DNA of 38,523 bases from Verrucomicrobiota bacterium (GTDB lineage Bacteria; Verrucomicrobiota; Verrucomicrobiia; Opitutales; Opitutaceae). Made by a program: the position numbers and the translations under genes. The DNA is taken from assembly GCA_016235555.1 (NCBI GenBank), contig JACRKC010000011.1, forward strand, positions 1 through 38,523, given 5' to 3'. Below the pieces are notes generated by a model, which saw nothing but the letters and a program-made list of their open reading frames with translations, did no database searches and was not told the origin of the DNA. This document shows, in pieces, positions 2,477 through 36,651 of the stretch. Positions within the stretch are counted from its first letter, which is position 1, and every line of letters begins with the position of its first letter.

Positions 2477-2560
2477 GGTGGAGCGCGTTGACCCCAACGC
2501 GCTTGGCTCGGATCGACCGGTCGCCATCGAACCAGCGTCTTGAGGTCAAGCCGCTCCACC
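2477..2560. repeat. REPIN family B (GGAG type)
   Basis: Begins GGTGGAGCGCGTTGACC and ends GGTCAAGCCGCTCCACC. The left arm hairpin is GCGCGTTGACCCCAACGCGC. The right arm (rc) carries the alternative stem GCGGCTTGA. It lies in the divergent gap between the DUF4139 gene and the delta-60 gene. Other paired copies are at 8938, 9490, 25099, 33930 and 36357; single arms are at 8757 and 9593. Confidence 0.85.
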
Positions 2561-2670: not shown

Positions 2671-5600
2671 ATGCCCATTGCCTCGTTTTTCCGGTCCGCC
2701 GCGCGTCCGCTGCGGGCACTTTTCGTTGCGTCGCTGACGGTTGCCGCGGCGCTGGCCCAGTCTCCGTCCGCGGCCGACGGCTTCGATCCCAACGTCGACG
2801 GCAACGTCTACGCCCTCGCCGCGCAGGCGGACGGCCGGGTGATCCTCGGCGGCCAGTTCAGCACGCTGCGGCCGAGCATCGGCGTCGCCGCGGCGCGCAC
2901 CAACCTCGCCCGTGTCAACATCGACGGCTCCCTCGATCTCTCCTTTGACCCCGGCGCCGACGGCCCGATCCGCGCGGTCGTCCTCCAGTCCGATGGCAAG
3001 CTCCTCGTCGGTGGCAAGTTCGATCGCATCGCCGGGGCGGCACGCACCAACCTCGCCCGCCTCAACGCCGACGGCTCGCTGGATGCCACGTTCAACGCCG
3101 GCGCGATCAACGCCGTGGTCAACGCCATCGTGGTCCTCCCCGACGGCCGCCTCGTGATCGGTGGCGCGTTTACCAGTGTCGCCGGCACGGCCCGCGGTCG
3201 CTGCGCACGCTTGAGCGCGACCGGCGCGCTCGATGCGACGTTCAACCCGAATTTCAACAACATCGTCTTCGCGCTCGCGACGCACGCCGAGGGCAAGGTC
3301 ATCGTCGGCGGCGCGTTCACCTCGCTGCAACCGCCGCAGGAGTCGGCGCCCACGGGCCGCGGCCGCCTCGCCCGCCTCAATCCGAATGGCACGCCCGATT
3401 CCCAGTTCGACGGCGGCGCCAACAACAGCGTTTACGCCATCGCGGTGCAGCGCGACGGCCGCATCATCATCGGCGGCGCGTTTTCGACCGTGCAGCCGAT
3501 CCTCACGCCGTCGGCCCAGAGCCGCTCGCGCCTCGCGCGTCTGCAACCCACCGGTGACTTCGACAGCTCGTTCATCGCCGGGGCCAGCGGCGATGTGAAC
3601 GCCCTCATCGTGCAACCCGACGGCTCCGTGCTCGCGGGCGGCGTGTTCTCTTCCGCGTTCGGCGGCGGCATCGCCCCGGCCGGTCGCAGCTTCCTCGCGC
3701 GTTTCTCCGCCGACGGTGCGCTCGACACCAATTTCACGCCGGGCGTCAACCAGGCCGTGAGCGCTCTCGCGCTTCTGCCCGACGGAAAGTTCGTCGCCGG
3801 CGGCTACTTCACCCGCGCCGCCAGCCGCGGCCTTCCGGTCGGCGTCATTCGCAACCGCCTCGCCCGCTTCAGCGCCGACGGCTCCCTCGACGCCACGCTC
3901 GCCCTCGAGGACGCGGGCCGCCCGCACTTCAGCATCGTGCAGAGCGACGGCCGGATTCTCATCGCCGGCACCTTCACCAGCGTGGGCGGCACCACCCGCA
4001 ACTACTTCGCCCGCCTCAACGCCGATGGCACGCTCGACCCCGCGTTCAACCCCAATCCCAACGGCCAGATCAAGTCCATCGCCCTCCAGAGCGACGGCCG
4101 CATCCTCGTCGGCGGCACCTTCACCAGCATCGGCGGCGTCTCGCGCAACCGCCTCGCCCGCCTCAGCGCCGCAGGCGTCGTCGACACGGCCTTCGACCCC
4201 AACCCCGACTCCGCGGTCGAGGCCCTCGCCGTGCAGAGCGACGGCAAGATCCTCGTCGGCGGCGCGTTCATTTCAATGACGCCCAACGGCGCCACCACCT
4301 CCACCACGCGCCTCCACCTCGCCCGCCTCAACACCGACGGCACCCTCGACACCGCGTTCGACCCCAGCGCGAGCAACAGCATCCTCGCCATCGCGGTCCA
4401 GTCGGACGGCAAGATTCTGGTCGGCGGCACGTTCACCACCTTCACTCCGCCCAGCAGCAACACCATCACCCGTGCCTACCTCGCGCGCCTCGCCACCGAC
4501 GGCAAGGTCGACGAGACCTTCCACCCCTCGCCCAACGGCGCCGTGCTCGCGCTCGCCCTCCAGGCGGACGGCAAGGTCATCGCCGGCGGCACGTTCACGA
4601 GTTTCCCCATCCCCAACGTCGCGGCCGACGCCGCCGTCACCACCTACACCCGCAACCGCATCGCCCGCCTCAACACCGACGGCGCCCTCGACACCGCGTT
4701 CGACCCCAACGCCAACGGCATGGTCAACACCGTCGCCGTGCAGTCCGACGGCAAGATTCTCCTCGGCGGCGTGTTCACCACGCTCACGCCCAACGGCACC
4801 GATCCCACCAAGTGGACCCAGCGGTTCTACGTCGCGCGGGTCGAAGCCTCCGGCGCCGTCGACACGACGTTTGACTTGGGCCTCGACGAACGCTCTGGCA
4901 ACAACGTCACCAGCCTCCGCGTGCAGGCCGACGGCCGGATTCTCCTCTGCGGCGGCTTCACCTCGCTGCGTCCGGGCAACACCGGCACCCGCGTCGCCCG
5001 CTCCCGCCTGATCCGCCTCAACGCCAACGGCACGCTCGACACCGCCTTCAACCCCGCCGCGGGTGGCGCCAATCCCGGCGCGATCAATGCCATCGCGGTG
5101 CAGGCGGACGGCCGCATCGTGATTGCCGGCGCGTTCACCGATTTTGCCGGCACCGGCACGAGCAACATCGCCCGCATCCATCCCGAAGGCGCGATCGACA
5201 CCTCGTTCAGCCGTGCCACCGGCGCGGACGGCGCCATCAACGCCGTCGCCATCCGCCCCGATATCACCGGCATCGTCCCCCAGCTCCCCGGCTTCGCCTG
5301 GCTCAACGCCTCCGCCACCGGCCTCGTCTCCACTTTCCGGGTGCCGTCCAACCTCTCGCTCAGCGGCACCGTCAGCGTCTTCGCCTTCGAGAGCGACGGC
5401 TCGCTCCTGCTCGGTGGCTCGTTCAGCAACCTCGCCACCGCCACCGGCGGCAACCTGATCCGCATCAAGCCGGACGGCACGCTCGACACCTCCTTCAACC
5501 CCTCGCCCAACGGCACCGTCAATCTTATCACCGTCCAGCTGGACGGCCGCATCCTCGTCGGCGGCACGTTCACCGGCTTCTCCCCCAACGGCGGCGAACT

Positions 5601-8600
5601 CGTCACCCGCAACCGCCTCGCCCGCCTCAACCGCGACGGCACGGTGACCAAGTTCGACCCCAACCCGAACTCCAACGTCACCTCCCTCGTCGAGCTGGCC
5701 AGCGGTCGCGTCCTCGTCACCGGCCAGTTCACCAGTTTCACCACCAATCTCGTCACCACGACCACGACCACGGATTCCACGGCCACGTCGACCGACAAGA
5801 GCAGCACCGAAACCAAGACCAACGCCGACGGCAGCACGACCACCACCACCATCACGGTCTCCGGCACCACCAAGACCACCACGGTCACCACCTCGAGCGG
5901 CGGCGCCACGACGGCGCGCAACTTCATCGCGCTTCTCACCACCGACGGCGATGTCGAGACCAGCTTCGATCCCAATCCCAACGGGCCCCTCAGCTCCATG
6001 GTCGTCCAGGCCGACGGCAGGATCGTGATCGGCGGCGCCTTCACCACCGTCGCGCCCAACGTCACCACCACCGGCGGCAGCGGCACGGCCGGCACCACCA
6101 CCACGACCAATTCCGACAACACCGTCACCACGGTCACCGTCACCGTCGCCAACAACGTCACGACGACCGTCACCTCCACGCTCTTCTACCGCAACTACCT
6201 CGCCCGCCTCAACGCCGACGGCACCATCGACCGCACCTACGACCCCAACCCCAACGCCACCGTCTACGCGCTCGCGCTCCAGGCCGACGGCAAGGTCCTC
6301 GTCGGCGGCGAATTCACCAGGATGGGCAACACGCCCCGCTTCAACCTCGCCCGCATCAACCCCGACAACGGCGTCGACTCCGCGTTCGACCCGAATCCCA
6401 ACGCGCTCGTCAACCGCCTCGCCGTGCAGCCCGACGGCTCGATCCTCTTCTCCGGCGCCTTCACCACCGTGCAGCCGGCCGGCGCCGCCTCCGTCCCGCG
6501 CCGCGGCTTCGCCCGCATCGCCGCCGGCGGCGCGCTCGACCTCGGCTTCGACCCCGTGCCCAACGGCGCCATCAGCGCCTCCGCCGTGCGGCCCGACGGC
6601 ACCCTCGTCCTCGCCGGCGAGTTCACCGAATTCAACCCCGGCGGTGTGATGTTTGTCGGCGGCAGCTTCTCCAACATCGGCGGCCTGCCCGCCGCCGGCC
6701 TCGCCGCGCTCAACAACGACGGCTCCGCCAGCTCGAACTTCCTCCCGAACCCCAACGGGGCCGTCAGCGCCCTCCTCATCCAGCCCGACGGCCGCCTCGT
6801 GGTCGGCGGCGCGTTCACCCAGATCGCCGGCACCGCGCGCAACGGCCTCGCCCGCTTCAGTGCGAATGGGACGCTTGACGCGACGTTCAATCCTGCGCCC
6901 GGAGCAGTCACGGCGGTCGCGATCCAACCGGACGGAAAGCTGCTGCTCGGCGTCGGTAGCTCCGTGCGGCGCATCGAATCCGACGGCCGCAGTGACGCCA
7001 CGTTCAGCACCGCGTTTGCCACCACCAGCACCGTGGGTGTGCGCGGGCTGGCCGTGCAGGCGGATGGCCGCGTCCTGGTGCTGGTCGGGGGATCAATTCT
7101 TCGTCTCAATGCCAACGGTTCTGGCGAGAGCACGTTTACCGATGCTTCGCTGAATGCCACCGGAACGACGATCGCTCTTCAGTCCGACGGCCGGATCTTC
7201 AAAAATGGAGTTCGCCTCACCACTACGGGTGCGGCGGATGCTTCCTTTGCTCCAGCCCCTGATGCATCGGTGTCAGCCGTGACGGTGCAAACCGACGGTC
7301 GCGTCCTCCTCGCCGGCGCCTTCAAGTCCGTCGGCGGTCTGACCCGCGTCGGCCTCGCCCGTCTCGCCCCCACCGGCACCGCCGTGCAATCGATGGCCAT
7401 CGCCGGCGGCACCGGCGCCACGCGCAACCTCGTCTGGATGCGCGACGGCACCAGCATGGAGCTCTCCAGCGTGCGCTTCGAAGTCTCGCAGGATGGCCGC
7501 AACTGGACCGTCCTCACCGCCAACGCCCAGCGCGCCACCGCCACCCGCGGCTGGCAGTCCGGCAACGTCACCGTCCCGGTCAACGCCCCCTTCTACGTGC
7601 GCGCCCGCGGCCTCGTCGCCAGCGGCACCGGCACCTCCGGCATCGTCGAATACACCCAGCAGTTCAACCTCTCCGACTCCGCCCGCTTCGTCGGCCCCGC
7701 CGCCACCGGCGACATCGCCAACGCCGTCATCGATGCCAAGACCGGCCAGGCCTACTTCGCGCAGACCTCTTCCGCCGGCAACGGCGACTTCGTGATCGCC
7801 GCCGCCCCCGCGCTCGTCGACGTCGTCACCATGCCGCCCACCGCGCCCGGCTCGGTCGTGGTCGACGGCGGCGCCGGCACCGCGCGCATCGCCAATCTCT
7901 CCGTGCGCTCCCGCGTGACCGCCGACACCCCGCTCATCACCGGCTTCGCCATCAGCGGCACCACGCCGCGCACCGTGCTCCTGCGCGGCGTCGGCCCGAG
8001 CCTCGGCGTGTTTGGCGTCACCGCGCCGCTCGCCCAACCGCGCCTGCAACTCTTCGATTCCGCCGGCCGCCTGCTCGTCGAAAACAACGGCTGGGCCGCC
8101 ACGCCCGCCAACGTCGCCGCGGTCGGCGAAGCGATGGCCCGCACGGGCGCGTTCCCGTTTGCCGCCAACTCCGGCAACGACGCCGCCGTCGCCCTCACGC
8201 TCGCGCCCGGCGCCTACTCGATGCAGGTGCAGGACCGCAGCCCTTCGACTGGCTCAGGGCAGGCCGGCACGGGCGGCGTCGCCCTCGCCGAAATTTACGA
8301 CGCCGACACCGCCACGACCTCGCGCCTCGTCAACCTCTCCTCGCGCAGCAGCGTGACCTCGGCCGACGGCGCCTTCATCACCGGCTTCGTGGTCAGCGGT
8401 GGCACCAGGAACCTGCTCGTCCGCGGCCTCGGCCCGGCGCTCATGCAGTTTGGCGTGAAGGACGTCCTGCCCGATCCGATGGTGAGCGTCTACGATGCCA
8501 CCGGCCGCCTCGTCTCAACCAACGATAACTGGACCAACGCGACCGGCGCACTCGGCGCGCAAGTGAGCGCCTTCCCGCTCACGGCCGGCAGCTCCGATGC

Positions 8601-8937: not shown

Positions 8938-9017
8938 GGTGGAGCGGCTTGACCTCAAGCCGCTTGCTCCGAAGCCGGCCGGACCCGCCAAAAGCGCGTT
9001 GAGGTCAACGCGCTCCA
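8938..9017. repeat. REPIN family B upstream of RAYT-2
   Basis: Left arm GGTGGAGCGGCTTGACCTCA... with stem GCGGCTTGA/TCAAGCCGC. Right arm ends GAGGTCAACGCGCTCCAC with stem GCGCGTTGA/TCAACGCGC. The arms differ by paired substitutions that keep both stems intact. It ends 16 bases before the RAYT-2 ATG. Confidence 0.9.
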
Positions 9018-9033
9018 CACCGAGCCTTGCGCG

Positions 9034-9504
9034 ATGCGCGAATACCCCGGCCGCCTGCATCACAACACACCGGCGTGGGTGGGAGACGGAGCGCTGTTCC
9101 ACGTGCGTGTGCGGGCTATGCCGGAACACCCCTCGTTGATCGAATCCCCACTCGCTTCCGATCTGCTCCGTGCCGCGCGCCGCTACCACGAACTCGGCCA
9201 CTGGTGGTGCGAGCTTTTCCTGCTGATGCCCGATCACGCCCACGCTCTGCTGGTGTTTCCGCGCGAGCCGGGAATGTCCGCGGCAATGCGCCACTGGAAG
9301 CGTGGCACGGCCCGCTTCCAGCGCGTCATTTGGCAGGAAGGTTTTTTCGATCACCGCCTGCGCAGCCCAGCCGAAGCCGGCGAAAAGTGGCACTACGTCC
9401 GTCGCAACCCCGTCGTGAAAAATCTCTGCACGACAGAAGACGGCTGGCCATGGTGGTGGAGCGGCATCATCGAAAACCCGCTGCTTGCAGGTGGAGCGCG
9501 TTGA
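9034..9504 (+). CDS. REP-associated tyrosine transposase (RAYT-2)
   Basis: A 156-residue Y1/HUH transposase of the TnpA-REP type. The HUH motif is MPDHAHALLVF (residues ~65-75). The likely nucleophile is the Tyr of EKWHYVRRNPVVKN (~residue 129). The HWWCELFLLMPDHAH block and WKRGTARFQ...WQEGFFDHRLRS are typical of RAYTs. The ATG follows a family-B REPIN by 16 bases. The last codons and stop (GGT GGA GCG CGT TGA, 9490-9504) are themselves the first bases of the next family-B REPIN, so the repeat supplies the stop codon. The enzyme differs clearly from RAYT-1 and is embedded in a different REP family, so family B is its probable substrate (inference from position). The frame is intact. Confidence 0.9.
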   Translation: MREYPGRLHHNTPAWVGDGALFHVRVRAMPEHPSLIESPLASDLLRAARRYHELGHWWCELFLLMPDHAHALLVFPREPGMSAAMRHWKRGTARFQRVIWQEGFFDHRLRSPAEAGEKWHYVRRNPVVKNLCTTEDGWPWWWSGIIENPLLAGGAR

Positions 9505-9607
9505 CCCCAACGCGCTTTCAGAAGTTCCGCCGGCCCCCAAGCCAGCGTCTTGAGGTCAAGCCGCTCCACCTCGACCATCGCGCATCCGTCGCGCAACGCG
9601 CTCCACC
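9490..9607. repeat. REPIN family B overlapping the RAYT-2 stop, plus extra arm
   Basis: A paired element runs 9490-9570 (GGTGGAGCGCGTTGACC ... GGTCAAGCCGCTCCACC). A third, degenerate arm follows at 9593-9607 (CAACGCGCTCCACCC). Its GGTGGAG head abuts the stop codon of the minus-strand sialate esterase gene, so the element connects the 3' ends of two convergent genes. Confidence 0.8.
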
Positions 9608-15107: not shown

Positions 15108-15262
15108 CGGCCCGCACGGTGTCGGCGATGTCCTCCCGGTGCAATGTCAGGCTGCCACGCGAAGTGCCGGAAGGTGCCTCTCGGTTTTCTGCCTGCGACA
15201 GGACGCCTCAGCCACGCTTGCTCGCCTCGTCGATGGCAGAAAGGCGGGATGCGTCCCATCCG
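15108..15262. other. Divergent intergenic region, no gene seen
   Basis: Lies between the sulfatase start and the terminal-inverted-repeat element, so it should hold the sulfatase promoter. I see no convincing -35/-10 pair, operator or small gene. Confidence 0.5.
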
Positions 15263-15400
15263 GGTGTAACTCAAAGTGAGGTCATCTTTCGAGGGCCTCG
15301 GCTGTAGCGGCGGTCTATGACCGTCGGCGTTGCGCCAAGGGAATTCGTTCGGCGGTCATAGACCGCCGCTACAAATCGCTGACCTCAGTTTGAGTTGCAC
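15263..15400. mobile_element. MITE-like element copy 1 with internal REPIN
   Basis: 138 bp. Left end GTGTAACTCAAAGTGAGGTCA; right end (rc) GTGCAACTCAAACTGAGGTC, about 19 of 21 matching. Inside, a GTAG-type REPIN (15304-15372) runs GTAGCGGCGGTCTATGACCG ... CGGTCATAGACCGCCGCTAC. It has no coding capacity. Copies 2 and 3 are at 31939-32077 and 34602-34732. Confidence 0.8.
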
Positions 15401-15463
15401 TTCGGACCATCCGATGCGCTCCGGTGCAACTGGGCACGGCGGTGCAGCGTCTCCGGCTGGCAC

Positions 15464-21895: not shown

Positions 21896-21947
21896 GGAGG
21901 AATTTTTGATTTACGATTTAGGATTTATGATTGCCCGAACCGGCGGC
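21896..21947 (-). repeat. AT-rich leader repeat upstream of upp
   Basis: On the minus strand it reads AATCATAAATCCTAAATCGT then AAATCAAAAATT and ends five bases before the ATG. The same word set (AATCATAAATC, CGTAAATCATAAATT) forms both arms of the element at 31469-31570 beside the DUF5069 start. Base composition contrasts sharply with the GC-rich surroundings. Confidence 0.65.
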
Positions 21948-23417: not shown

Positions 23418-25922
23418 TTAAGGCGCCAGCGTGAGGGTGTATTTGGTTTCGCCGGGGAGGAGCGGGGCCGGCTCGCCGCGCGCCCACGCATCATAGCCGG
23501 CGTGGAAGAAGGGCGAGAGCGGATGCGCGCTCTGGCCGCCGGGCATGTGAAAGAGGCCCTCGGCTTCGCGACCGGGCGCGACGACGAAGCGCTCGCTCGC
23601 ACCGTGGGTCGGGCTCTGCACGCGGGGCATGTTGGAGTCACCCGGCAGCGGGACGGCCGGCTGATTCAGCCAGCCGGTCAGCCATTTCGGCGCGACTTTG
23701 GCGAACGGATGCCGGACGCGCGCGGTGTTGTGGCGGCCCCACGTGGCTTCGGCGAGCGGCACGCCTTGCTGGGCGAGGTCGGCGACGACGGCGTCGGCGG
23801 CGGCGAGGAGCAGGGCGTCCCAACTGGCGAAACGCGGATCGAGCAAGTGGAGCGGCTTCTCGCGCACGAGCGTTTGCAGCGCGTCTTCGTAGCGCAGGTT
23901 GTGCCAGTCGAAGCGCGCGTAGGCGTCGCGGCACGGTTCGAGGATCGGCGCCAATGCGAGGTCGGCGACCTCGCTGCGGAACGTCCGCACGAGGCGGTAG
24001 CTCACGGAGTCGACGCTCGCGCGGCCCTCCCACTTTTCGACGAGCGTGCGCAGCTCGGCGCGGGTTTTGTTTTGCGCGACGGCGTCGGGCGTGAGGGCGG
24101 CGAGGAGAATCTTCTGCCACGCGCCGAGCATCACGGCGCGGTCGTCGAGCTGCACGGCGAAGAGGTCGCGCGGCGTGGCCTTGGTGGCGGCGAGCGCGGT
24201 GAGATCGTCGCGGATTTGCGCGGCCCGGGCGGGCGCGGCCGGGCCGCCGTCGCCGAGGAGAGCGCCGGGCGCGCCGCCGAGCGCGCGGTTGTTGCCGGTC
24301 CAGAGCTGGCCTTCCTTCGCCAGCGCCACGGAGGGCAGGCCCGCGGCCGTGGATTTCACGACGGGCACTTCGTCGGGCGGGAGCATGCCATCCCACTTGC
24401 GGTCGCCGAAAGTCCACTGGATGGGCAGGCGACCGTCGAAGCCGATGCGCCGCGGCACGCGGCCGGCGATGGTCCAGGCGATCGTGCCGTCGGCGCCGGC
24501 GATGAGGCAGTTCTCGGCGGGGATGCCGCAGCGGTGGGCGATGGCGATGGCTTCGTCGACGGTGCGCGCGCCGGCCATGCGGGTGAGTTCGAGATTCGTT
24601 GCTCCGGGATCGTGGGCGAGCCAGCGGTAGGCGAGGGGGCGGTGTTTCTTGTCGCCTTCGTCGATGAGCGGTCCCCAGACGGTCCACAGGGTTTCGAGTT
24701 CGACGTCCTTACCGCCCTTCACGCGGATCGTCTCGCGCCGCACGTCGAACTCGAGGTTTTCGTCGCCGCGGCGGTAGAGGGACGGGGCGATGGTGTTGCG
24801 CTGCACCACGACCACGTCGCTCGTGTCGATGTAGGCGTCGGTGAAACCCCACGCGACGCGGCCGTTGCTGCCGGCGACGATGCCGGGGGCGCCGGGGAGC
24901 GTGACGCCGACCACGCGCTGGTGGCCGCCGGCGTCGTCCCACTCGAGCACGGCGCGATACCAGATATTGGGCACGCCGTGGTCGAGGTGCATGTCGTTCG
25001 CGAGGAGCGCGGCGCCGCTGGCGGTGCGCGGGCCGGCGAGCGCGAAAGCGTTGGAGCCGGGGAAAAATTCGGGATCGCGGGCGGGGAAGAGATCGAAAGG
25101 TGGAGCGCGTTGACCCCAACGCGCTTCAGGGTTTTCGCTTCGAACCAGCGCGTTGGGGTCAACGCGCTCCACCACGGACAGGCTTTTCCGCCCGCGCAGA
25201 TCGATGATCTTGGGCGAAGGGATGGGCGGGAGCGGGGCGGTGGAGCCGTCGAGCGCGGCGTCGCTCGGGCCGATCAGCGGATTGAAAAACGCGATGGCTT
25301 CGTCGCCGTAGGTCTCGCGCAGCGCGGCGAGCGAGCGCTCGCGCCGGCCGTCGTCCTCCTGGAGATCGAACCACATCGCGAACGTGACGAGCGCGGAGTC
25401 TTCGAGGCGCCACGGCTGCGGGCTGGTGCGCAGCACGAGGTATTCGAAGGGCCGCGCGGCGAGCGCGTCGCGGCCGGCGTTGACGCCCGCGGTGTAGGCC
25501 TCGGCGAGGGCGCGTTCGCGCGGTTCGGCGCGGGCGACGATTTCCCGGGCGATTTTCCGGAAGCCGTGGAGCCGCGCGCTCCGGTCGATCGGCACGGCGG
25601 CGGCACCGAAGAGCTCGGCGAGTTCGCCGGCGCCGCGGCGGCGCAGCAGATCCATCTGGAAAAAACGTTCCTGGCCGTGCAACCAGCCGAGGGCGCGCAT
25701 GGCATCGACCTCGGTGGCGGCGCGCACCGTGGGCACCCCGAGCGCGTCGCGGGTCACGCTGACGGGCGCGCCGAGTCCCGCGGCCGTCGCGCGGCCGTCG
25801 AGTTGCGCCCGGCTGGCGCGGAGGCTCAGGTAGAACCAGCCGCCGGCGGCGACGAGGAGCAGCGCGAGAGCGCTCAGAGCGAAGACGACAACGCGGACGA
25901 ACTGGGCGGCACGGAGTGGCAC
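23418..25922 (-). CDS. Penicillin acylase-family amidohydrolase with in-frame REPIN
   Basis: An Ntn-hydrolase of the penicillin/AHL/cephalosporin acylase family. A single precursor is autocleaved into alpha and beta chains and hydrolyses amides outside the cytoplasm. GTG 25922 gives a clean signal anchor (QFVRVVVFALSALALLLVAAGGWFYL); GTG 25961 and TTG 26027 are alternatives, the latter overlapping the kinase gene. The alpha chain shows ALGVPTVRAATEVDAMRALGWLHGQERFFQMDLLRR. The nucleophile is Ser290 at FFPG-SNAFALAG, the expected autoproteolysis site. The beta chain has LLANDMHLDHGVPNIWYRA, VTLPGAPGIVAGSNGRVAWGFTDAYIDTSD, and later FGDRKWDGMLPPDE. Residues ~250-275 (VERVDPNALVRSENPEARWG) are a REPIN translated in frame, in the spacer just before Ser290. 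The gene follows the histidine kinase on the same strand. The substrate could be a beta-lactam, an acyl-homoserine lactone or another amide. Confidence 0.9.
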   Translation of the reverse strand: MPLRAAQFVRVVVFALSALALLLVAAGGWFYLSLRASRAQLDGRATAAGLGAPVSVTRDALGVPTVRAATEVDAMRALGWLHGQERFFQMDLLRRRGAGELAELFGAAAVPIDRSARLHGFRKIAREIVARAEPRERALAEAYTAGVNAGRDALAARPFEYLVLRTSPQPWRLEDSALVTFAMWFDLQEDDGRRERSLAALRETYGDEAIAFFNPLIGPSDAALDGSTAPLPPIPSPKIIDLRGRKSLSVVERVDPNALVRSENPEARWGQRAPPFDLFPARDPEFFPGSNAFALAGPRTASGAALLANDMHLDHGVPNIWYRAVLEWDDAGGHQRVVGVTLPGAPGIVAGSNGRVAWGFTDAYIDTSDVVVVQRNTIAPSLYRRGDENLEFDVRRETIRVKGGKDVELETLWTVWGPLIDEGDKKHRPLAYRWLAHDPGATNLELTRMAGARTVDEAIAIAHRCGIPAENCLIAGADGTIAWTIAGRVPRRIGFDGRLPIQWTFGDRKWDGMLPPDEVPVVKSTAAGLPSVALAKEGQLWTGNNRALGGAPGALLGDGGPAAPARAAQIRDDLTALAATKATPRDLFAVQLDDRAVMLGAWQKILLAALTPDAVAQNKTRAELRTLVEKWEGRASVDSVSYRLVRTFRSEVADLALAPILEPCRDAYARFDWHNLRYEDALQTLVREKPLHLLDPRFASWDALLLAAADAVVADLAQQGVPLAEATWGRHNTARVRHPFAKVAPKWLTGWLNQPAVPLPGDSNMPRVQSPTHGASERFVVAPGREAEGLFHMPGGQSAHPLSPFFHAGYDAWARGEPAPLLPGETKYTLTLAP
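25099..25174. repeat. REPIN family B inside the acylase gene
   Basis: 76 bp from GGTGGAGCGCGTTGACCCCA to GGGTCAACGCGCTCCACC, a near-perfect paired element. It is read on the minus strand in frame, with the phase GTG GAG CGC GTT GAC, giving VERVDPNAL. The same phase is used in the oxidoreductase copy at 33930. Confidence 0.92.
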
Positions 25923-25974
25923 GGGAGTGGGCGCACTGTGGGTGTTGGCCCGGCGAACCACAAGCCGGCGTCGC

Positions 25975-28900
25975 TCACCGGCCGTCGAGCGTCTGGCGCA
26001 CCATGGTGAACAGCGCGTGCGCCTCAAACGGTTTCTGCAGGAAGTTCTGGCCGGGTTTCAGCTCGATGCCGCGGTGGACGATATCGGCGCTGTAGCCGGT
26101 CATGAGAATGACCTTCAGGGCCGGGGAGTCGCCTTGGAGGCGGTCGGCGAGATCGCGGCCGGAGATGCCTTCCGGCATCACCAGGTCGGTCAACAGCAGC
26201 GCGATTTCCTGGCGGTGGTCCGACCAGAGTTTCAGGGCGCCGGGCCCGTGCTCGGCTTCGAGCACGCGATAGCCGTGCTGCTTCAGCAGCAGGCGGGTCA
26301 CGTCGCGCACCGCCGGCTCGTCCTCCACGAGGAGGATCGTTTCGGTGCCGCGGGGCGCCGGCGCCGGGGCGGGAAGGGCGGCCGGGAGAACGGCGGACTC
26401 GTCGATCGGCAGCAGCACCTCGAAGGTCGTGCCGGCGCCCAGCCGGCTGTCGACGAGGATGGCGCCCCGGTGCTGGCGCACGATCCCAAAGATCGTGGCC
26501 AGGCCCAGCCCGGTGCCCTGGCCGATGGGTGTGGTGGTGAAAAACGGTTCGAAGATGCGCGGCAGCACCTCCGGGGCGATGCCGGCGCCGGTGTCGCGCA
26601 CCAGCAGGCACGCGTAGGGCCCCGGGGTCAGGTCGGGATGGCGCTGCGCCTCCTCCGGCGGCAGAATCCGGCGGCTGGTTTCCAGCATCAGCCGGCCGCC
26701 GTGCGGCATGGCGTCGCGGGCGTTGACGGCAAGATTGAGCAGCACTTGCGCCAGCATCCCGGCGTCGGCGTGGATCGGAATCGGCCCGGCGTGGAGCGCG
26801 ATTTCCAGCCGGATGTCCTCGCCGACCATCCGCCGGATCATCTTGGTGTCCTCGGTGACGACGTCGTTCAGGTTGAGATGCGCGGGCTGCATCATGGAGC
26901 GGCGGCTGAAGGCCAGCAGCTGGCTCGTGAGCCTGGCGGCGCGCTGGCCGAGGCGCTGCACCTCGGCGAGGGCCTCGGCGACCGACGGGGACAACCGGGC
27001 CTCGTGGCTCGCGAGCTCCGCCCGGGCGAGGATGGCGGTGAGGATGTTGTTGAAGTCGTGCGCCACGCCGCCGGCGAGCTGGCCGATCGCCTCCATTTTC
27101 TGGGACTGGCGGAACTGGCCCTCGAGCTCGCGGCGGGCCGTGATGTCGACCATCGTGATCACGGCCAGGAGCGGCCGGCCGGTCGTATCGTCGCGGGCGA
27201 GCGTGCCGGTGAAGGTGAACTGTTTTTTCCACCCGGCCTGCCGGTGGATCAGGGTGGCTTCCCAATTGCGCACGGTTTCGCCCCGCAGGAGGCGGGCGAG
27301 CGGCCACTGTTCGTGGGGCACGACCTGGCCGTCCGCGGCGCGGAACTCGAACGTGCCGGTGAACTCGTCCAGGTGCCGCCGGCATTCGTCGAGACTGCGG
27401 TAGCCGTGGAGTTCGAGCGCGGCCCGGTTCCAATACACCAGCTGGCCGTCGAGTTCGGACACGACCACGCCCTCGGAGAGGTTGTCGAGGCTGGCCTGGA
27501 GCAGGGCGAACTGCCGGGCGCGCGCCTGCTCGGCCTCGGCGAGGCGGGCCTCGGCGCGTTGGCGGTCGGTGATGTCGAACACCAGCGACAACACGCACGC
27601 GCGTCCTTGCAGATCGATCCGCTCGGCGGAGCTGAGCGAGTGCCGGAGTTCGCCGGATTTGGTGCGGAAGGACTGCTCGAACTGGGTCAGTTTTCCGGTG
27701 TCCCGCAACGCGGTGGCCAGGCGTTCGCGGTCCTTCGGCTCCGGCCACAAGCCGAGCTCCAGCGAGGTGCGTTCGAGCACCTCGTCCCGATCCGCGTAGC
27801 CGAACAGCCGGAGAAACGCCTCGTTGACCTCGATCAACCGTCCCTCCGCGAGCGTCGAGAGGAACATCGCCACCGGGCTGGCGCGAAACGCGACCTCGAA
27901 CCGCTCCTCGCTCCGGCGCAGATTGGCGGCGTCCCGGGCCTGCTGGATCGCGATCGACGCGGCGTGGGTCGCCAGGCGCAGGGTCATCTCATGCACGGCG
28001 GTCGGCTCGCGGGGCTCGCGGGCATACAGCGCGAGGGTGCCCAGCACCTCGCCCACGCGGCCGAAGATGGGGGTCGACCAGCAGGCGCGCAGGCCGTGCG
28101 CGCGGGTCAGCTCGCGGTAGTCGGCCCAGAGCGGGTCCGCGTCGATATCGGTGACGGTCACGGTCTGCCGGCGGAAGGCGGCGGTGCCGCAGGATCCGAC
28201 GTTGGGTCCGATCGCCACGCCATCGATGGCGCGGCAATAGGCGGCGGGCAGGTTCGGGGCCGCGCCGTGGTGGAGCCGGCGGGTGTGGGGATCGAGCACC
28301 AGGACCGAGCAGACCCAGCCGTCCCAGCCGTCCGCGCGCGCCTCGGTGTAGCGGCAGATTTCCTCCAGCGTGGCCGCGAGCGGCTGCCCGGCGGCGATGT
28401 GTTCGAACAGGTCGCGCTGGCCGGCGATCAATTCGTTGGCGAACTTCTGCGTCGTGATGTCCCGCGAAATCCCGGCGATGCGATAGATGCGGCCCTGCAC
28501 GTTGCGGATCGGCACGAGCGTGGTGCTCCAGCAATGGCGGCCCGCCGGGTAGGTCAGGTCCGACTCGTAGTGCACCACCCGCCCCGATTCGAGGCACTCG
28601 CGATAACGGGGCATCAGGATGGCGGCGTTCTCCGGCGGCAGGACTTCGTCCGGCGAGCGACCGTGGACGGCGGCCGAGGTGAGGCCGGTCACTTTTTCGC
28701 AGCGCGGGTTGAAGGTCTCGTAGGCGAAGCGGCCCTCGTTGCTGACACTCATGACGAACACGGCGTCGTCCATGTTGGCGTAGATCTCCGCCAGCCGCGC
28801 CTCGCTCCGCAGCAACTCCTCGGTGGTGTGCAGGCGCTCCAGGGTGCCGCCGCAGTGATCGGCGAGGCCCTGCAGGGTCGCGAGATCCTGTTCGGTGAAG

Positions 28901-31468: not shown

Positions 31469-31570
31469 ATTTATGATTTACGATTGATGATTTTTGATTG
31501 GCCGGACGAGCCGCCGCATGGCGGACCGGCGAGTCATCAATCAAAAACCGTAAATCATAAATCATAAATT
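31469..31570. repeat. AT-rich palindromic element upstream of DUF5069 gene
   Basis: Arms AATTTATGATTTACGATTGA... and ...AAATCATAAATCATAAATT flank a GC-rich centre (GCCGGACGAGCCGCCGCATG). It lies between the small membrane protein stop and the DUF5069 start, ending six bases before that ATG. It is related to the single arm at 21901-21935 before upp. Confidence 0.75.
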
Positions 31571-31883: not shown

Positions 31884-31938
31884 CGTAGCGGCGTTCGCCG
31901 AAAAGAAAAGCGCGCGGTGGGTTTTCCGTCGTGGACGA

Positions 31939-32077
31939 GTGTGACTCAAATTGATGTCAGTGACTTGTAGCGGCGGTCTATGACCGCCGAACGAAGGCCC
32001 TTGGTGCAACGCCAGCGGTCATAGACCGCCGCTACAACCGAGCAGCACTCGAGAACTGACCTCAGTTTGAGTTGCAC
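31939..32077. mobile_element. MITE-like element copy 2
   Basis: 139 bp. Left end GTGTGACTCAAATTGATGTC; right end (rc) GTGCAACTCAAACTGAGGTC. The internal REPIN runs 31967-32035 (GTAGCGGCGGTCTATGACCG ... GCCGCTAC). It is flanked on both sides by CCGTCGTGGACGAG (31926-31939 and 32078-32091), a 14-base direct repeat that may be a target-site duplication. Confidence 0.8.
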
Positions 32078-32080
32078 CCG

Positions 32081-32160
32081 TCGTGGACGAGGCGTCCCGC
32101 CTCGTGCCCGCGGCTTGGCGCCACAGGGCGAGGAAACGAGGCGAGACGCCTCGTCCACGA
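32081..32160. repeat. REPIN family E' before the oxidoreductase start
   Basis: TCGTGGACGAGGCGTCCCGC then CTCGT at the left matches the right arm (rc) at 24 of 25 bases. Each arm also folds on itself (ACGAGGCG/CGCCTCGT). It ends at the base before the TTG that is the likely start of the oxidoreductase. Confidence 0.8.
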
Positions 32161-34587
32161 TTGAAACGCGTCCGCCGCCTGCTCAACGTCCCGCGCGTGC
32201 CCGACCCCGCTCTTCCCGCTGCCCAGCCGCCACCCGAATCCTCGCCGGCGCGCCTTGCGGCACCGAGCGCTCATGCCGCCGGCCTCGGCGGCGTGGTGGC
32301 GGCGACGCGGCACACGTTCGGACGCGCCGGCGTGGCGCGCGGCACCAAGCTGCTGCTGGAGGTGAACCAGAAGGACGGCTTCGACTGCCAGTCGTGTGCG
32401 TGGCCGAGCCCGGACGGCGAGCGGCACACGTTCGAGTTTTGCGAAAACGGCGCCAAGGCCGTGGCCGACGAGGCGACAACGAAGAAAATCGGGCACGAGT
32501 TTTTCGCCGCGCATTCGGTCGCCGCACTCGCCGCCCGGAGCGACCACTGGCTCAACGCGCAGGGCCGGCTCGTCGAGCCGCTTGTGCTGCGGCCGGGTGC
32601 CACGCACTACGCGCCCCTCGCGTGGGACGAGGCGTTCGCGCTCATCGCGAGCGAGTTGCGCGCGCTGGCGTCGCCGGATGAGGCGGCGTTCTACACCTCG
32701 GGCCGGACGAGCAACGAGGCGGCGTTTCTCTGGCAGTTGTTCGCGCGGCAGTTCGGCACCAACAATCTCCCCGACTGCTCCAACATGTGCCACGAGTCGA
32801 GCGGCGCCGCGCTCAGCGAGAGCCTCGGCATCGGCAAGGGCACGGTGACGCTGGAGGACTTCGAACGCGCCGATGCCATCTTCGTGATCGGCCAGAATCC
32901 GGGCACCAACCACCCGCGCATGCTCACGTCGCTCGAAGCCGCGAAGCGCCAGGGCGCGACCATCGTCTCGATCAACCCGCTGCCCGAAGTCGGCACGGAG
33001 CGTTTCAAAAATCCGCAGGATTTTCTCAATCCGCTGAAGGCCCTGCCCACGCTGCTCGGCAAAGGCTCGCGCCTGGCCGACCTCTGGCTCCAGCCGCGTA
33101 TCGCCGGCGACCTCGCGCTGTTCAAGGGCCTCATGAAGGAAATGCTCGCCGCCGAGGATGCCGCGCCGGGCACGGTGTTCGACCAGGCGTTTATCCGCGA
33201 ACACACCCACGGCTTTGAAGCGCTCGTGGCCGATCTGCGGGCGGCGAACTGGGATGAAATCGTCGCCGCGAGCGGCGTGCCGCGCGAGCAGATCGCCGTG
33301 GCCGCGCGAATCGCGATGCGTGCGCGCGCCACGATTTGTTGTTGGGCGATGGGCCTTACGCAGCAGCCCGACTCGGTCGCGACGATCCAGCAGATCGTCA
33401 ACTTCCTCCTGTTGCGCGGCAACGTCGGCCGCCCCGGCGCCGGCGCGTGCCCGGTGCGCGGGCACTCCAACGTGCAGGGTGACCGCACCATGGGCATTTG
33501 CGAACGGCCGCCCGCATGGATCGACCGACTCGACGCCGAGTTCGGCCTGAAATCGCCGCGCGCCCACGGCCTCGACACGGTCGGCACGATTCGCGCGATG
33601 GCTGAGGGCCGGGTAAACGTGCTCGTCGCGCTCGGCGGCAACTTTTTGTCGGCCACGCCCGACACGGAGTTCACCGCGGCGGCGCTGCGCCGCTGCACGC
33701 TCACCGCGCACGTTTCGACCAAGCTCAACCGCGCGCACCTCGTGACCGGCCGCACCGCGCTCATCCTGCCGTGCCTCGGCCGCAGCGAACGCGACGTGCA
33801 GGCGGGTGGCGAGCAGTTCGTGACGGTTGAGGACTCAATGGGAATCATCAACCCGTCGCGCGGCCGGCTCGCACCCGCGTCGGCGCACCTGCGCAGCGAG
33901 GTCGCGATCGTGTGCGGGATTGCATCCGAGGTGGAGCGCGTTGACCACAACGCGCTTTCAGGATCATCGAACGCACCTCAAACCAGCGCGTTGAGGTCAA
34001 CGCGCTCCACCCCCTGGCCAGACTTCGTAACGAACTACGATCTCATCCGCGACCGCATTGCGCGCGTCGTGCCGGGGTTCGAGGACTACAACCGCCGCAT
34101 CCGCGCGGGTATTTTCCACCTGCCCAACGCTCCGCGGGATCGCCGCGAATGGCGCACGCGCACGCAGCGGGCGAACTTCATTGTCGCGCCGATCCCGCGC
34201 CCGGTGATCGCGGCCGCTGAATTCGTGATGATGACGATCCGCTCGCACGATCAGTTCAACACGACCGTCTACGGCCTCGACGACCGCTACCGCGGCGTGT
34301 TCGGCGGGCGGCGCGTGGTGTTCATGCACGAGGATGACATCGGCGTGCTCGGTCTGATGCAGGGCCAGCGCGTCGACCTCACCAACCGCCACGGCGGAGT
34401 GGAGCGGGTGGCGCGCGGGTTCATGGTCGCGCCTTACCGGATCCCGCGTGGCTGCGTGGCGACGTATTTCCCGGAGGCCAACGTGCTCGTGCCCATCGGC
34501 CTGACCGCCGCGAAGAGCAACACCCCGGCGAGCAAATTCGTCGTCGTGACGATTGCGGCCAGCCGGGGCGCGCGCCCGCCCGGTTGA
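32161..34587 (+). CDS. FdhF/YdeP-like molybdopterin oxidoreductase with in-frame REPIN
   Basis: About 808 residues, a molybdopterin-binding oxidoreductase of the formate-dehydrogenase-alpha-like (YdeP/TIGR01701-type) family; the true electron donor is unknown. TTG 32161 (LKRVRRLLNVPRVP) is chosen because the upstream ATG 32083 lies wholly in a palindromic repeat. Family blocks: LLLEVNQKDGFDCQSCAWPSPDG (Cys76, Cys79), FYTSGRTSNEAAFLWQLFARQFGTNNLPDCSNMCHESSG, FVIGQNPGTNHPRML, CCWAMGLTQQPDSVATIQQIVNFLLLRGNVGRPGAGACPVRGHSNVQGDRTMG, and the C-terminal dinucleotide-binding domain (VMMTIRSHDQFNTTVYGLDDRYRGVFG). There is no signal peptide, so it is probably cytosolic. Residues ~590-617 (EVERVDHNALSGSSNAPQTS) are a family-B REPIN translated in frame, between the conserved EDSMGIINPSRGRL block and the dinucleotide-binding domain. 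Confidence 0.9.
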   Translation: MKRVRRLLNVPRVPDPALPAAQPPPESSPARLAAPSAHAAGLGGVVAATRHTFGRAGVARGTKLLLEVNQKDGFDCQSCAWPSPDGERHTFEFCENGAKAVADEATTKKIGHEFFAAHSVAALAARSDHWLNAQGRLVEPLVLRPGATHYAPLAWDEAFALIASELRALASPDEAAFYTSGRTSNEAAFLWQLFARQFGTNNLPDCSNMCHESSGAALSESLGIGKGTVTLEDFERADAIFVIGQNPGTNHPRMLTSLEAAKRQGATIVSINPLPEVGTERFKNPQDFLNPLKALPTLLGKGSRLADLWLQPRIAGDLALFKGLMKEMLAAEDAAPGTVFDQAFIREHTHGFEALVADLRAANWDEIVAASGVPREQIAVAARIAMRARATICCWAMGLTQQPDSVATIQQIVNFLLLRGNVGRPGAGACPVRGHSNVQGDRTMGICERPPAWIDRLDAEFGLKSPRAHGLDTVGTIRAMAEGRVNVLVALGGNFLSATPDTEFTAAALRRCTLTAHVSTKLNRAHLVTGRTALILPCLGRSERDVQAGGEQFVTVEDSMGIINPSRGRLAPASAHLRSEVAIVCGIASEVERVDHNALSGSSNAPQTSALRSTRSTPWPDFVTNYDLIRDRIARVVPGFEDYNRRIRAGIFHLPNAPRDRREWRTRTQRANFIVAPIPRPVIAAAEFVMMTIRSHDQFNTTVYGLDDRYRGVFGGRRVVFMHEDDIGVLGLMQGQRVDLTNRHGGVERVARGFMVAPYRIPRGCVATYFPEANVLVPIGLTAAKSNTPASKFVVVTIAASRGARPPG
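33930..34011. repeat. REPIN family B inside the oxidoreductase gene
   Basis: 82 bp, GGTGGAGCGCGTTGACCACA ... GAGGTCAACGCGCTCCACC. The left arm is read GTG GAG CGC GTT GAC, identical in phase to the acylase copy; the right arm is read as ALRSTRSTP. No stop or frameshift results. Confidence 0.92.
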
Positions 34588-34601
34588 GCGGCTCTGCGCG
34601 G

Positions 34602-34732
34602 GTGTGACTCAAACTGAGGTCAGTGATTTGTAGCGGCGGACCGTCGAACGAATCCCCTTGGCGCAACGCCGGCGGTCATAGACCGCCGCTACAACCGAGG
34701 CCTTCGAGAACTGACATCAGTTTGAGTCACAC
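34602..34732. mobile_element. MITE-like element copy 3
   Basis: 131 bp with the best-matched ends: GTGTGACTCAAACTGAGGTC and (rc) GTGTGACTCAAACTGATGTC. The internal REPIN (34630-34692) lacks about six bases of its left arm compared with copies 1 and 2. It lies 14 bases after the oxidoreductase stop. Confidence 0.82.
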
Positions 34733-34788
34733 CCGCTCCGCGCTCGCGCCGGAACAATCTTGTGCTATCGTTCGTCAGAACAGGCATC

Positions 34789-36352: not shown

Positions 36353-36356
36353 GCGT

Positions 36357-36477
36357 GGTGGAGCGCGTTGACCTCAACGCGCTTTTGGTGGGAGGGGCTT
36401 TACGCCCCGACGAGTCGCGGGGTAAACCCGCTCCCACCTCCCAAACCAGCGCGTTGAGGGGACAACGCGCCCCACCC
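36357..36477. repeat. Nested REPIN: family B interrupted by another REPIN
   Basis: Outer arms GGTGGAGCGCGTTGACCTCA and GGACAACGCGCCCCACC are family B. Between them (36388-36437) lies a second paired element, GGTGGGAGGGGCTTTACGCC ... GGGGTAAACCCGCTCCCACC, with its own GGGCTTTACGCCC hairpin. It starts four bases after the thioesterase stop. Confidence 0.8.
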
Positions 36478-36651
36478 CGGAAAATTGCCTTGCGTCGGCG
36501 GGCCGGGCGTGCGTCCTTCGGCGCCTCGTTAGTGAAAGCGTTAGATGACAGGATCTGGTGAGTCGTTGGCTGAGCGTCTGGCTTAAGTGATGATTTCGAA
36601 ACCCAAGGTGGGAACGGAACTGGCAGAGACGGTGGATCTACGAAATATCAC
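36478..36651 (+). other. Leader region of the RRM gene, no gene seen
   Basis: 174 bases upstream of the RNA-binding-protein ATG and lower in GC toward the gene (GTGATGATTTCGAAACCC, CGAAATATCAC). It may hold the promoter and a structured 5' leader. I see no clear -35/-10 or cold-shock box. Confidence 0.35.

Follow-up and report, generated by a model that had tools for sequence, protein, structure and literature searches.

The window analysed here, that is, the whole stretch of 38,523 nucleotides, carries on its minus strand an open reading frame of the penicillin acylase family, and within this frame lies a paired palindromic repeat of the REPIN type. The features of the locus, in window positions, are as follows.

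23418..26027, minus strand: open reading frame of the penicillin acylase family with a TTG start, matching PF01804 (Penicil_amidase) with E 7.6e-142.
25053..25055, minus strand: codon of the aligned autoproteolytic nucleophile, Ser325, placed by alignment.
25099..25173, no strand given: REPIN of 75 nt (GGTGG...CCACC), made of two inverted 27-nt REP arms and a 21-nt centre.
25099..25125, plus strand: left REP arm, with the tag GTGG and the stem AGCGCGTTG/CAACGCGCT.
25147..25173, minus strand: right REP arm, the 27 nt of the left arm in reverse complement.

The true start of the acylase is probably a GTG within the open reading frame, near 25919. Read on the minus strand in the frame of the acylase, the REPIN has no stop codon and encodes V285-P310, a stretch that ends 15 residues before Ser325. 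This serine (GSN motif) aligns with residue 1 of 4hst_B, the beta chain of a solved cephalosporin acylase, and a serine occupies its column in 104/104 aligned homologues. Hence both the profile match and the serine at the start of the beta chain place the protein in PF01804. These results bear out the sequence-only reading, which had proposed a REPIN translated in frame in a penicillin acylase and ending about 15 residues before the predicted autoproteolytic Gly-Ser; the open frame, the family match and a codon-usage model, which finds one coding frame running through the REPIN, all agree on this. It could be argued that no protein is made, either because the gene is decaying or because high GC content opened the frame by chance, since long chance open reading frames are common here and several REPIN-spanning ones failed as genes through the element. 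Against this, the acylase aligns end to end with homologues up to 60% identical, the nucleophile region is conserved and the codon score is strong, and we regard this explanation as the least probable of those considered, with hardly any chance of being correct. Identity to the closest homologues found is about 60%, rising to 64% where only part of the protein is aligned. The closest named relatives belong to Opitutaceae, Opitutae and Verrucomicrobia records, and the organism is accordingly placed in or near the Opitutaceae.

The two arms of the REPIN are identical in reverse complement across all 27 nt. In the predicted folds, a single arm forms an unpaired head followed by the stem with AGCGCGTTG/CAACGCGCT, and the full strand forms one long hairpin of -63.3 kcal/mol. 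The element had previously been described as a 76-bp paired palindrome at 25099-25174 of the GGAG type. The palindrome holds, but its extent is 75 nt, to 25173, and the class label does not, as the predicted fold shows GTGG as the unpaired 5' tag ahead of the hairpin stem that is expected of a REPIN; the tag is thus better called GTGG, a variant of GTAG, than GGAG.

We searched the element's own genome (8.03 Mb in 140 contigs, the window being contig C79) for further copies. The 15-base head of the arm, with at most one mismatch, occurs at 419 places, compared with 38 for a reversed control, and the exact REPIN pattern occurs at 36 places, compared with 0 for the reversed control pattern. Looser patterns, in which only the outer eight bases on each side were fixed, gave 27 pairs with a length of 68-74 nt, against 1 in the control, and 42 with a length of 75-86 nt, against 0, hence 69 REPIN-like pairs in total; one of them, C92:65223 (L162), looks like a chance match. 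Exact pairs were present in 7 of the 57 genomes searched, the own genome included: 36 in the own genome, 5 in G026, 2 in G001 and one each in G017, G024, G028 and G031. With inverted 27-nt arms and copies far above chance in the own genome, the identity of the element as a REPIN, as first proposed, is well founded. Moreover, the copies are dispersed and mostly intergenic, as REPINs are expected to be, with 62/69 pairs lying outside genes or at gene ends and many at tight same-strand gene junctions according to the codon model. Three further copies in the window fall outside genes by the same model.

2477..2560, no strand given: REPIN copy outside genes.
8938..9019, no strand given: REPIN copy outside genes.
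9490..9570, no strand given: REPIN copy outside genes.

Another REPIN, at window 36355-36478, contains in its centre a second palindrome (GGTGGGAG...CTCCCACC), apparently a nested repeat. The window also holds a RAYT-like Y1_Tnp open reading frame (PF01797, E 7.2e-6) at 81-656 on the minus strand, flanked by REPs of another family with the tag GTAG (GTAGGGCGGGGTC, at 53, 556 and 648); since this open reading frame carries the GTAG-tagged family on its flanks, the window contains at least two REP families. We considered whether this RAYT could be the cognate mover of the REPIN, and this is unsupported, because its flanking REPs belong to the other family. Ten Y1_Tnp matches were found in the own genome, one of them with a GTGG REP about 1.1 kb off; within the stretches analysed, a clear copy directly adjoining the match was seen at none of these ten loci, two of which are clipped by contig ends.

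We next turn to the position of the insert in the protein. The homologue alignment comprises 104 full-length rows from both strands, with four identical pairs among them (L021, L036, L038, L039 and L040 lacked a full row and were left out), and the spacer segment was counted from residue 230 to Ser325. This segment has 95 residues in the present acylase and 66-111 (median 77.5) in the 104 homologues; in the 15 nearest it has 79, 79, 91, 82, 79, 67, 91, 79, 79, 70, 79, 77, 78, 111 and 76. Measured against the most frequent length among the nearest homologues, 79, the gain would be 16, and we earlier read this as a replacement with a net gain of 16; that reading is no longer firm with L018 (70) and L024 (67) among the nearest, given that removing the 25 residues of the repeat from 95 leaves 70, inside the natural range. 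A plain addition of 25 residues may thus have occurred, which would fit L018. An exact empty site was not seen among the homologues found, the closest being about 60% identical, and the net gain cannot be fixed because spacer length varies so much among relatives. Hence the claim that the element adds about 25 residues is sound for the repeat-encoded length and unsettled for the net gain (67-111 in the nearest homologues vs 95). Homologues with a same-length spacer of unrelated sequence had been named as evidence against the proposal, and L054, L095 and L103 provide it in part, their segment also being exactly 95 residues with other sequence; spacer length alone is no proof, and the repeat identity rests on the DNA copies that occur elsewhere in the genome.

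The length of this segment varies more than that of any other internal part of the protein. Among insertions of at least 14 residues relative to the consensus columns, 19/23 lie in the spacer, 3 at residue 562 and 1 at residue 367, and segment length has a standard deviation of 9.2 in the spacer and 8.3 at the N-terminus; nowhere else does it exceed 4.8, the value for the region of residue 562. The spacer before the nucleophile is therefore the main internal length-variable site of the acylase family. An AlphaFold2 model of the acylase (810 residues, 35 sequences in the input alignment) reached a mean pLDDT of 88.7 and a pTM of 0.91, and a structure search with it returned D-succinylase, cephalosporin acylases and penicillin acylases as top matches. 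The sole stretch of three or more residues with pLDDT below 50 is model 229-253 (full numbering 288-312), and the repeat occupies model 226-251. Such low values are expected at the repeat as for any unique loop, because the alignment is silent on it, so that they may partly mirror the absence of the repeat from the alignment; the model nevertheless shows the remainder of the acylase predicted to fold without the repeat. The placement of the REPIN in the spacer before the nucleophile is thus upheld, in a segment predicted to be disordered and at a site where the family tolerates a change in length.

We propose that a GTGG-tagged REPIN, non-autonomous and thought to be moved by a RAYT, entered the acylase gene in a stop-free frame, and that its sequence would now account for the greater share of the precursor segment that links the alpha and beta parts. 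The insert would have survived since this segment needs no folding and presumably becomes exposed, or is removed, on self-cleavage of the precursor ahead of Ser325. That a REPIN landed in frame in the acylase spacer and has persisted there as a close to neutral insert is, in our view, well supported and quite probable: the insert is most likely close to neutral, and it most likely persisted since the flexible segment tolerates foreign sequence. By analogy with known acylases, maturation may discard the repeat peptide. The insert might instead alter maturation, so that autoproteolysis is slowed or shifted and the repeat has a regulatory effect instead of being neutral. In favour of this, spacer length has been a subject of study in this fold: going by their titles, PDB entries include spacer-shortened and spacer-removed mutants of cephalosporin acylase and a spacer-shortened MacQ solved uncleaved. 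On the other side, natural segments of 66-111 residues coexist with a serine kept in 104/104 homologues, so that 95 residues lie within the family range; we consider altered maturation improbable, though the most serious competitor of a close to neutral insert.

Genes other than the acylase also carry REPINs in this genome. An element was called as lying in a gene by a codon-usage model, for which training and scoring used the same stretches, when at least 30 coding bases extended beyond it on both sides, and 7/69 REPINs qualified. Because 30 coding bases were demanded on each side, REPINs overlapping gene ends count as outside; L154, counted outside, seems to be read at a gene end. A cruder test on 240-nt flanks also placed seven in genes, but with L177 instead of L163; the gene-segment test is the one used here, and L163, which it selects, has a Pfam match. 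Besides the acylase, the hosts are as follows.

33930..34011, plus strand: REPIN in the gene of a formate-dehydrogenase-like molybdopterin oxidoreductase (32071-34584), in frame between PF00384 and PF01568.
REPIN in the gene of a sugar ABC ATPase, with two ABC_tran stretches and the repeat after the first.
REPIN in the gene of a glycosyltransferase 9, with a Pfam match.
REPIN in the gene of an SBD_N/NBD_C protein, with a Pfam match.
REPIN in the gene of a DUF6298 protein, with a Pfam match.
REPIN in the gene of a FecR protein, with a Pfam match.

The palindrome is thus translated in frame in the acylase and in six Pfam-supported genes of unrelated functions. An OEP open reading frame and two histidine kinase ones, all with Pfam matches, were set aside, as the codon model does not find coding sequence on both flanks of the REPIN. 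Across the 69 REPINs, one frame on each strand is free of stops in only 15 and 18 elements, respectively, and each of the remaining four in 43 to 52. A frame-preserving length was not significantly enriched in genes (5/7 vs 28/62 outside; Fisher p 0.25). The 73-nt class (75 nt with the outer bases) had at first looked special to genes, with 8/9 exact copies of that length within long open reading frames; it was dropped, since 12/15 lie outside genes by the codon model, and the length of an open reading frame alone is misleading as evidence for a gene in a GC-rich genome.

The gain in length was compared with close homologues for three of the seven proteins (acylase, oxidoreductase and ABC ATPase). 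In the oxidoreductase, the segment has 75 residues compared with 54-59 in 14/15 homologues and 73 in one (L227), and subtracting the repeat's 27 codons leaves 48, below every homologue; at the site of the REPIN, L227 (identity about 81%) carries extra residues of a different sequence. In the ABC ATPase, the segment has 81 residues vs 63-70 in 10/10 homologues, and subtracting 25 leaves 56. In both proteins the gain is smaller than the repeat, which would mean that native linker was either lost at insertion or trimmed later. For the glycosyltransferase, 138 residues around the REPIN align with 128 of 3tov, a weak hint that replacement may have happened there too; PDB sequence searches with other REPIN-bearing proteins did not show the inserted stretch. 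A gain smaller than the repeat in two proteins suggests that repeats can replace linkers, and this bears on the mode of REPIN insertion. These hosts also bear on the idea that the repeat works as an RNA or DNA hairpin (in RNA stability, or in ribosome pausing at the alpha/beta border) and that its translation is a side effect. The predicted stability of the hairpin and the many copies at tight gene junctions, where an action of REPs on RNA has been suggested (PMC3733652, in the portion available), would suit such a role, but the acylase REPIN lies deep within a single gene and the families of the other host genes are unrelated; a hairpin function therefore seems very unlikely to us. The acylase and its companion hosts show at which sites a mobile repeat can turn coding, namely linkers and, here, a segment that maturation may discard.

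Different repeats were found in the same spacer in two further acylases. In L095, from a Pseudomonadota MAG, the spacer includes a repeat, about 52 bases long, for which scoring 40 of 142 candidates gave at least 45 matches in the MAG, itself counted; in L087, from a MAG titled Proteobacteria, it includes another, palindromic repeat, about 42 bases long, for which scoring 40 of 59 candidates gave at least 44, itself counted. Both acylases are read through in one frame, and both repeats, judged by eye, differ from the REPIN. In samples taken from the top of the lists, 7/20 and 5/20 copies of the two repeats fall within coding regions, and 11/12 of the open reading frames hosting them have Pfam matches, a ThiF protein, polyketide synthases, a DNA topoisomerase and leucyl-tRNA synthetase being among these hosts; as these repeats enter genes often, their insertion in the acylase is less surprising. 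Short palindromes in frame in host genes of this sort, among others, were observed in two MAGs, G057 (L186-L205) and G058 (L206-L225). In ten other long spacers, chosen for their length, no high-copy repeat was found (33 candidates scored per genome): nine matched only themselves, and L084 had, besides itself, a single weak hit (79% over 58 nt). The search covered the spacer part of these genes; insertions of at least 14 residues also occur in the spacers of L112, L102, L056, L044, L026 and L019 and, four in number, at residues 367 and 562. The resulting 3/13 repeat-bearing spacers do not give a rate, because L087 and L095 were chosen for the appearance of their peptides.

The shared site reflects, at least in part, where the fold accepts inserts. 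More tentatively, and with the balance of our judgement against it, the self-excised spacer of Ntn acylases could be a recurrent landing pad, entered independently by different repeat families in at least three lineages, with maturation deleting the peptide. If so, mobile DNA would be erased at the protein level and not by splicing. The acylase spacer offers a simple test system, since mass spectrometry of the chain ends would tell whether the repeat peptide is kept or lost.

The present protein resembles the penicillin and cephalosporin acylases (Ntn hydrolases, PF01804) in its fold, the GS border at the nucleophile and the spacer before the beta chain, and differs from known ones in that the spacer is mostly made of a mobile repeat. 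For three penicillin acylases, the accessible part of PMC3461476 reports the removal of spacers 9, 37 and 54 residues long. REPs translated within genes have been known since 2013, so that the acylase REPIN is a further example of them: as far as its available text goes, a study in BMC Genomics (PMC3733652) reports REPs within open reading frames of several species, with Opitutus terrae having the highest intragenic GTAG count and GTGG occurring in most of its GTAG-20 elements, finds that over half of the intragenic inserts are dimers or groups coding for 20-30 residues, and argues that linkers and loops may render intragenic REPs neutral. Like the acylase REPIN, these O. terrae elements are palindromic, lie inside open reading frames in a member of Opitutaceae and commonly carry GTGG. 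The word acylase is absent from the main text of that study; in its available parts we found neither a measure of net length nor a predicted structure, and a protein site shared by different repeats is given there only for recB in two Xanthomonas. In the open-access literature, nothing on palindromic repeats in acylases was found among the first 8 of 9 matches, and a search on REPs of Opitutus and its relatives listed no paper on this case. In the searches made, we did not find in print the acylase spacer as a host site, other repeats at this site in two further lineages, or a gain smaller than the repeat in two proteins.

Two further systems invite comparison. The Rickettsia palindromic elements, of about 150 bp and with nearly half of their copies in open reading frames (PMC10969869, in the part available), are likewise palindromic inserts translated in unrelated conserved proteins (excerpts of PMC10969869 and PMC3733652); they are larger and far more often within genes than the 7/69 here, and they are likened by published description. 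With in-frame palindromes in seven unrelated conserved genes, the analogy in effect that the sequence-only reading had drawn with them is justified. The REPINs of Pseudomonas fluorescens, as described in the accessible text of PMC3116915, share the two inverted REPs with a centre, the single hairpin, the many copies and the presence of RAYT genes, but their REPs are nearly all extragenic, with 14 of 1,067 16-mers overlapping genes.

Besides the REPINs, the window contains other repeats. A dispersed inverted repeat of about 100 nt, with copies 89% alike, occurs at window 15261-15401, 31938-32042 and 34591-34743, and short AT-rich repeats of the ATTTATGATTTACGATT type lie amid GC-rich DNA at window 21902-21942, 31469-31505 and 31526-31562. 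Furthermore, the long stretch at window 2782-7434 carries about 20 diverged repeats, with a spacing of mostly about 147-190 nt.
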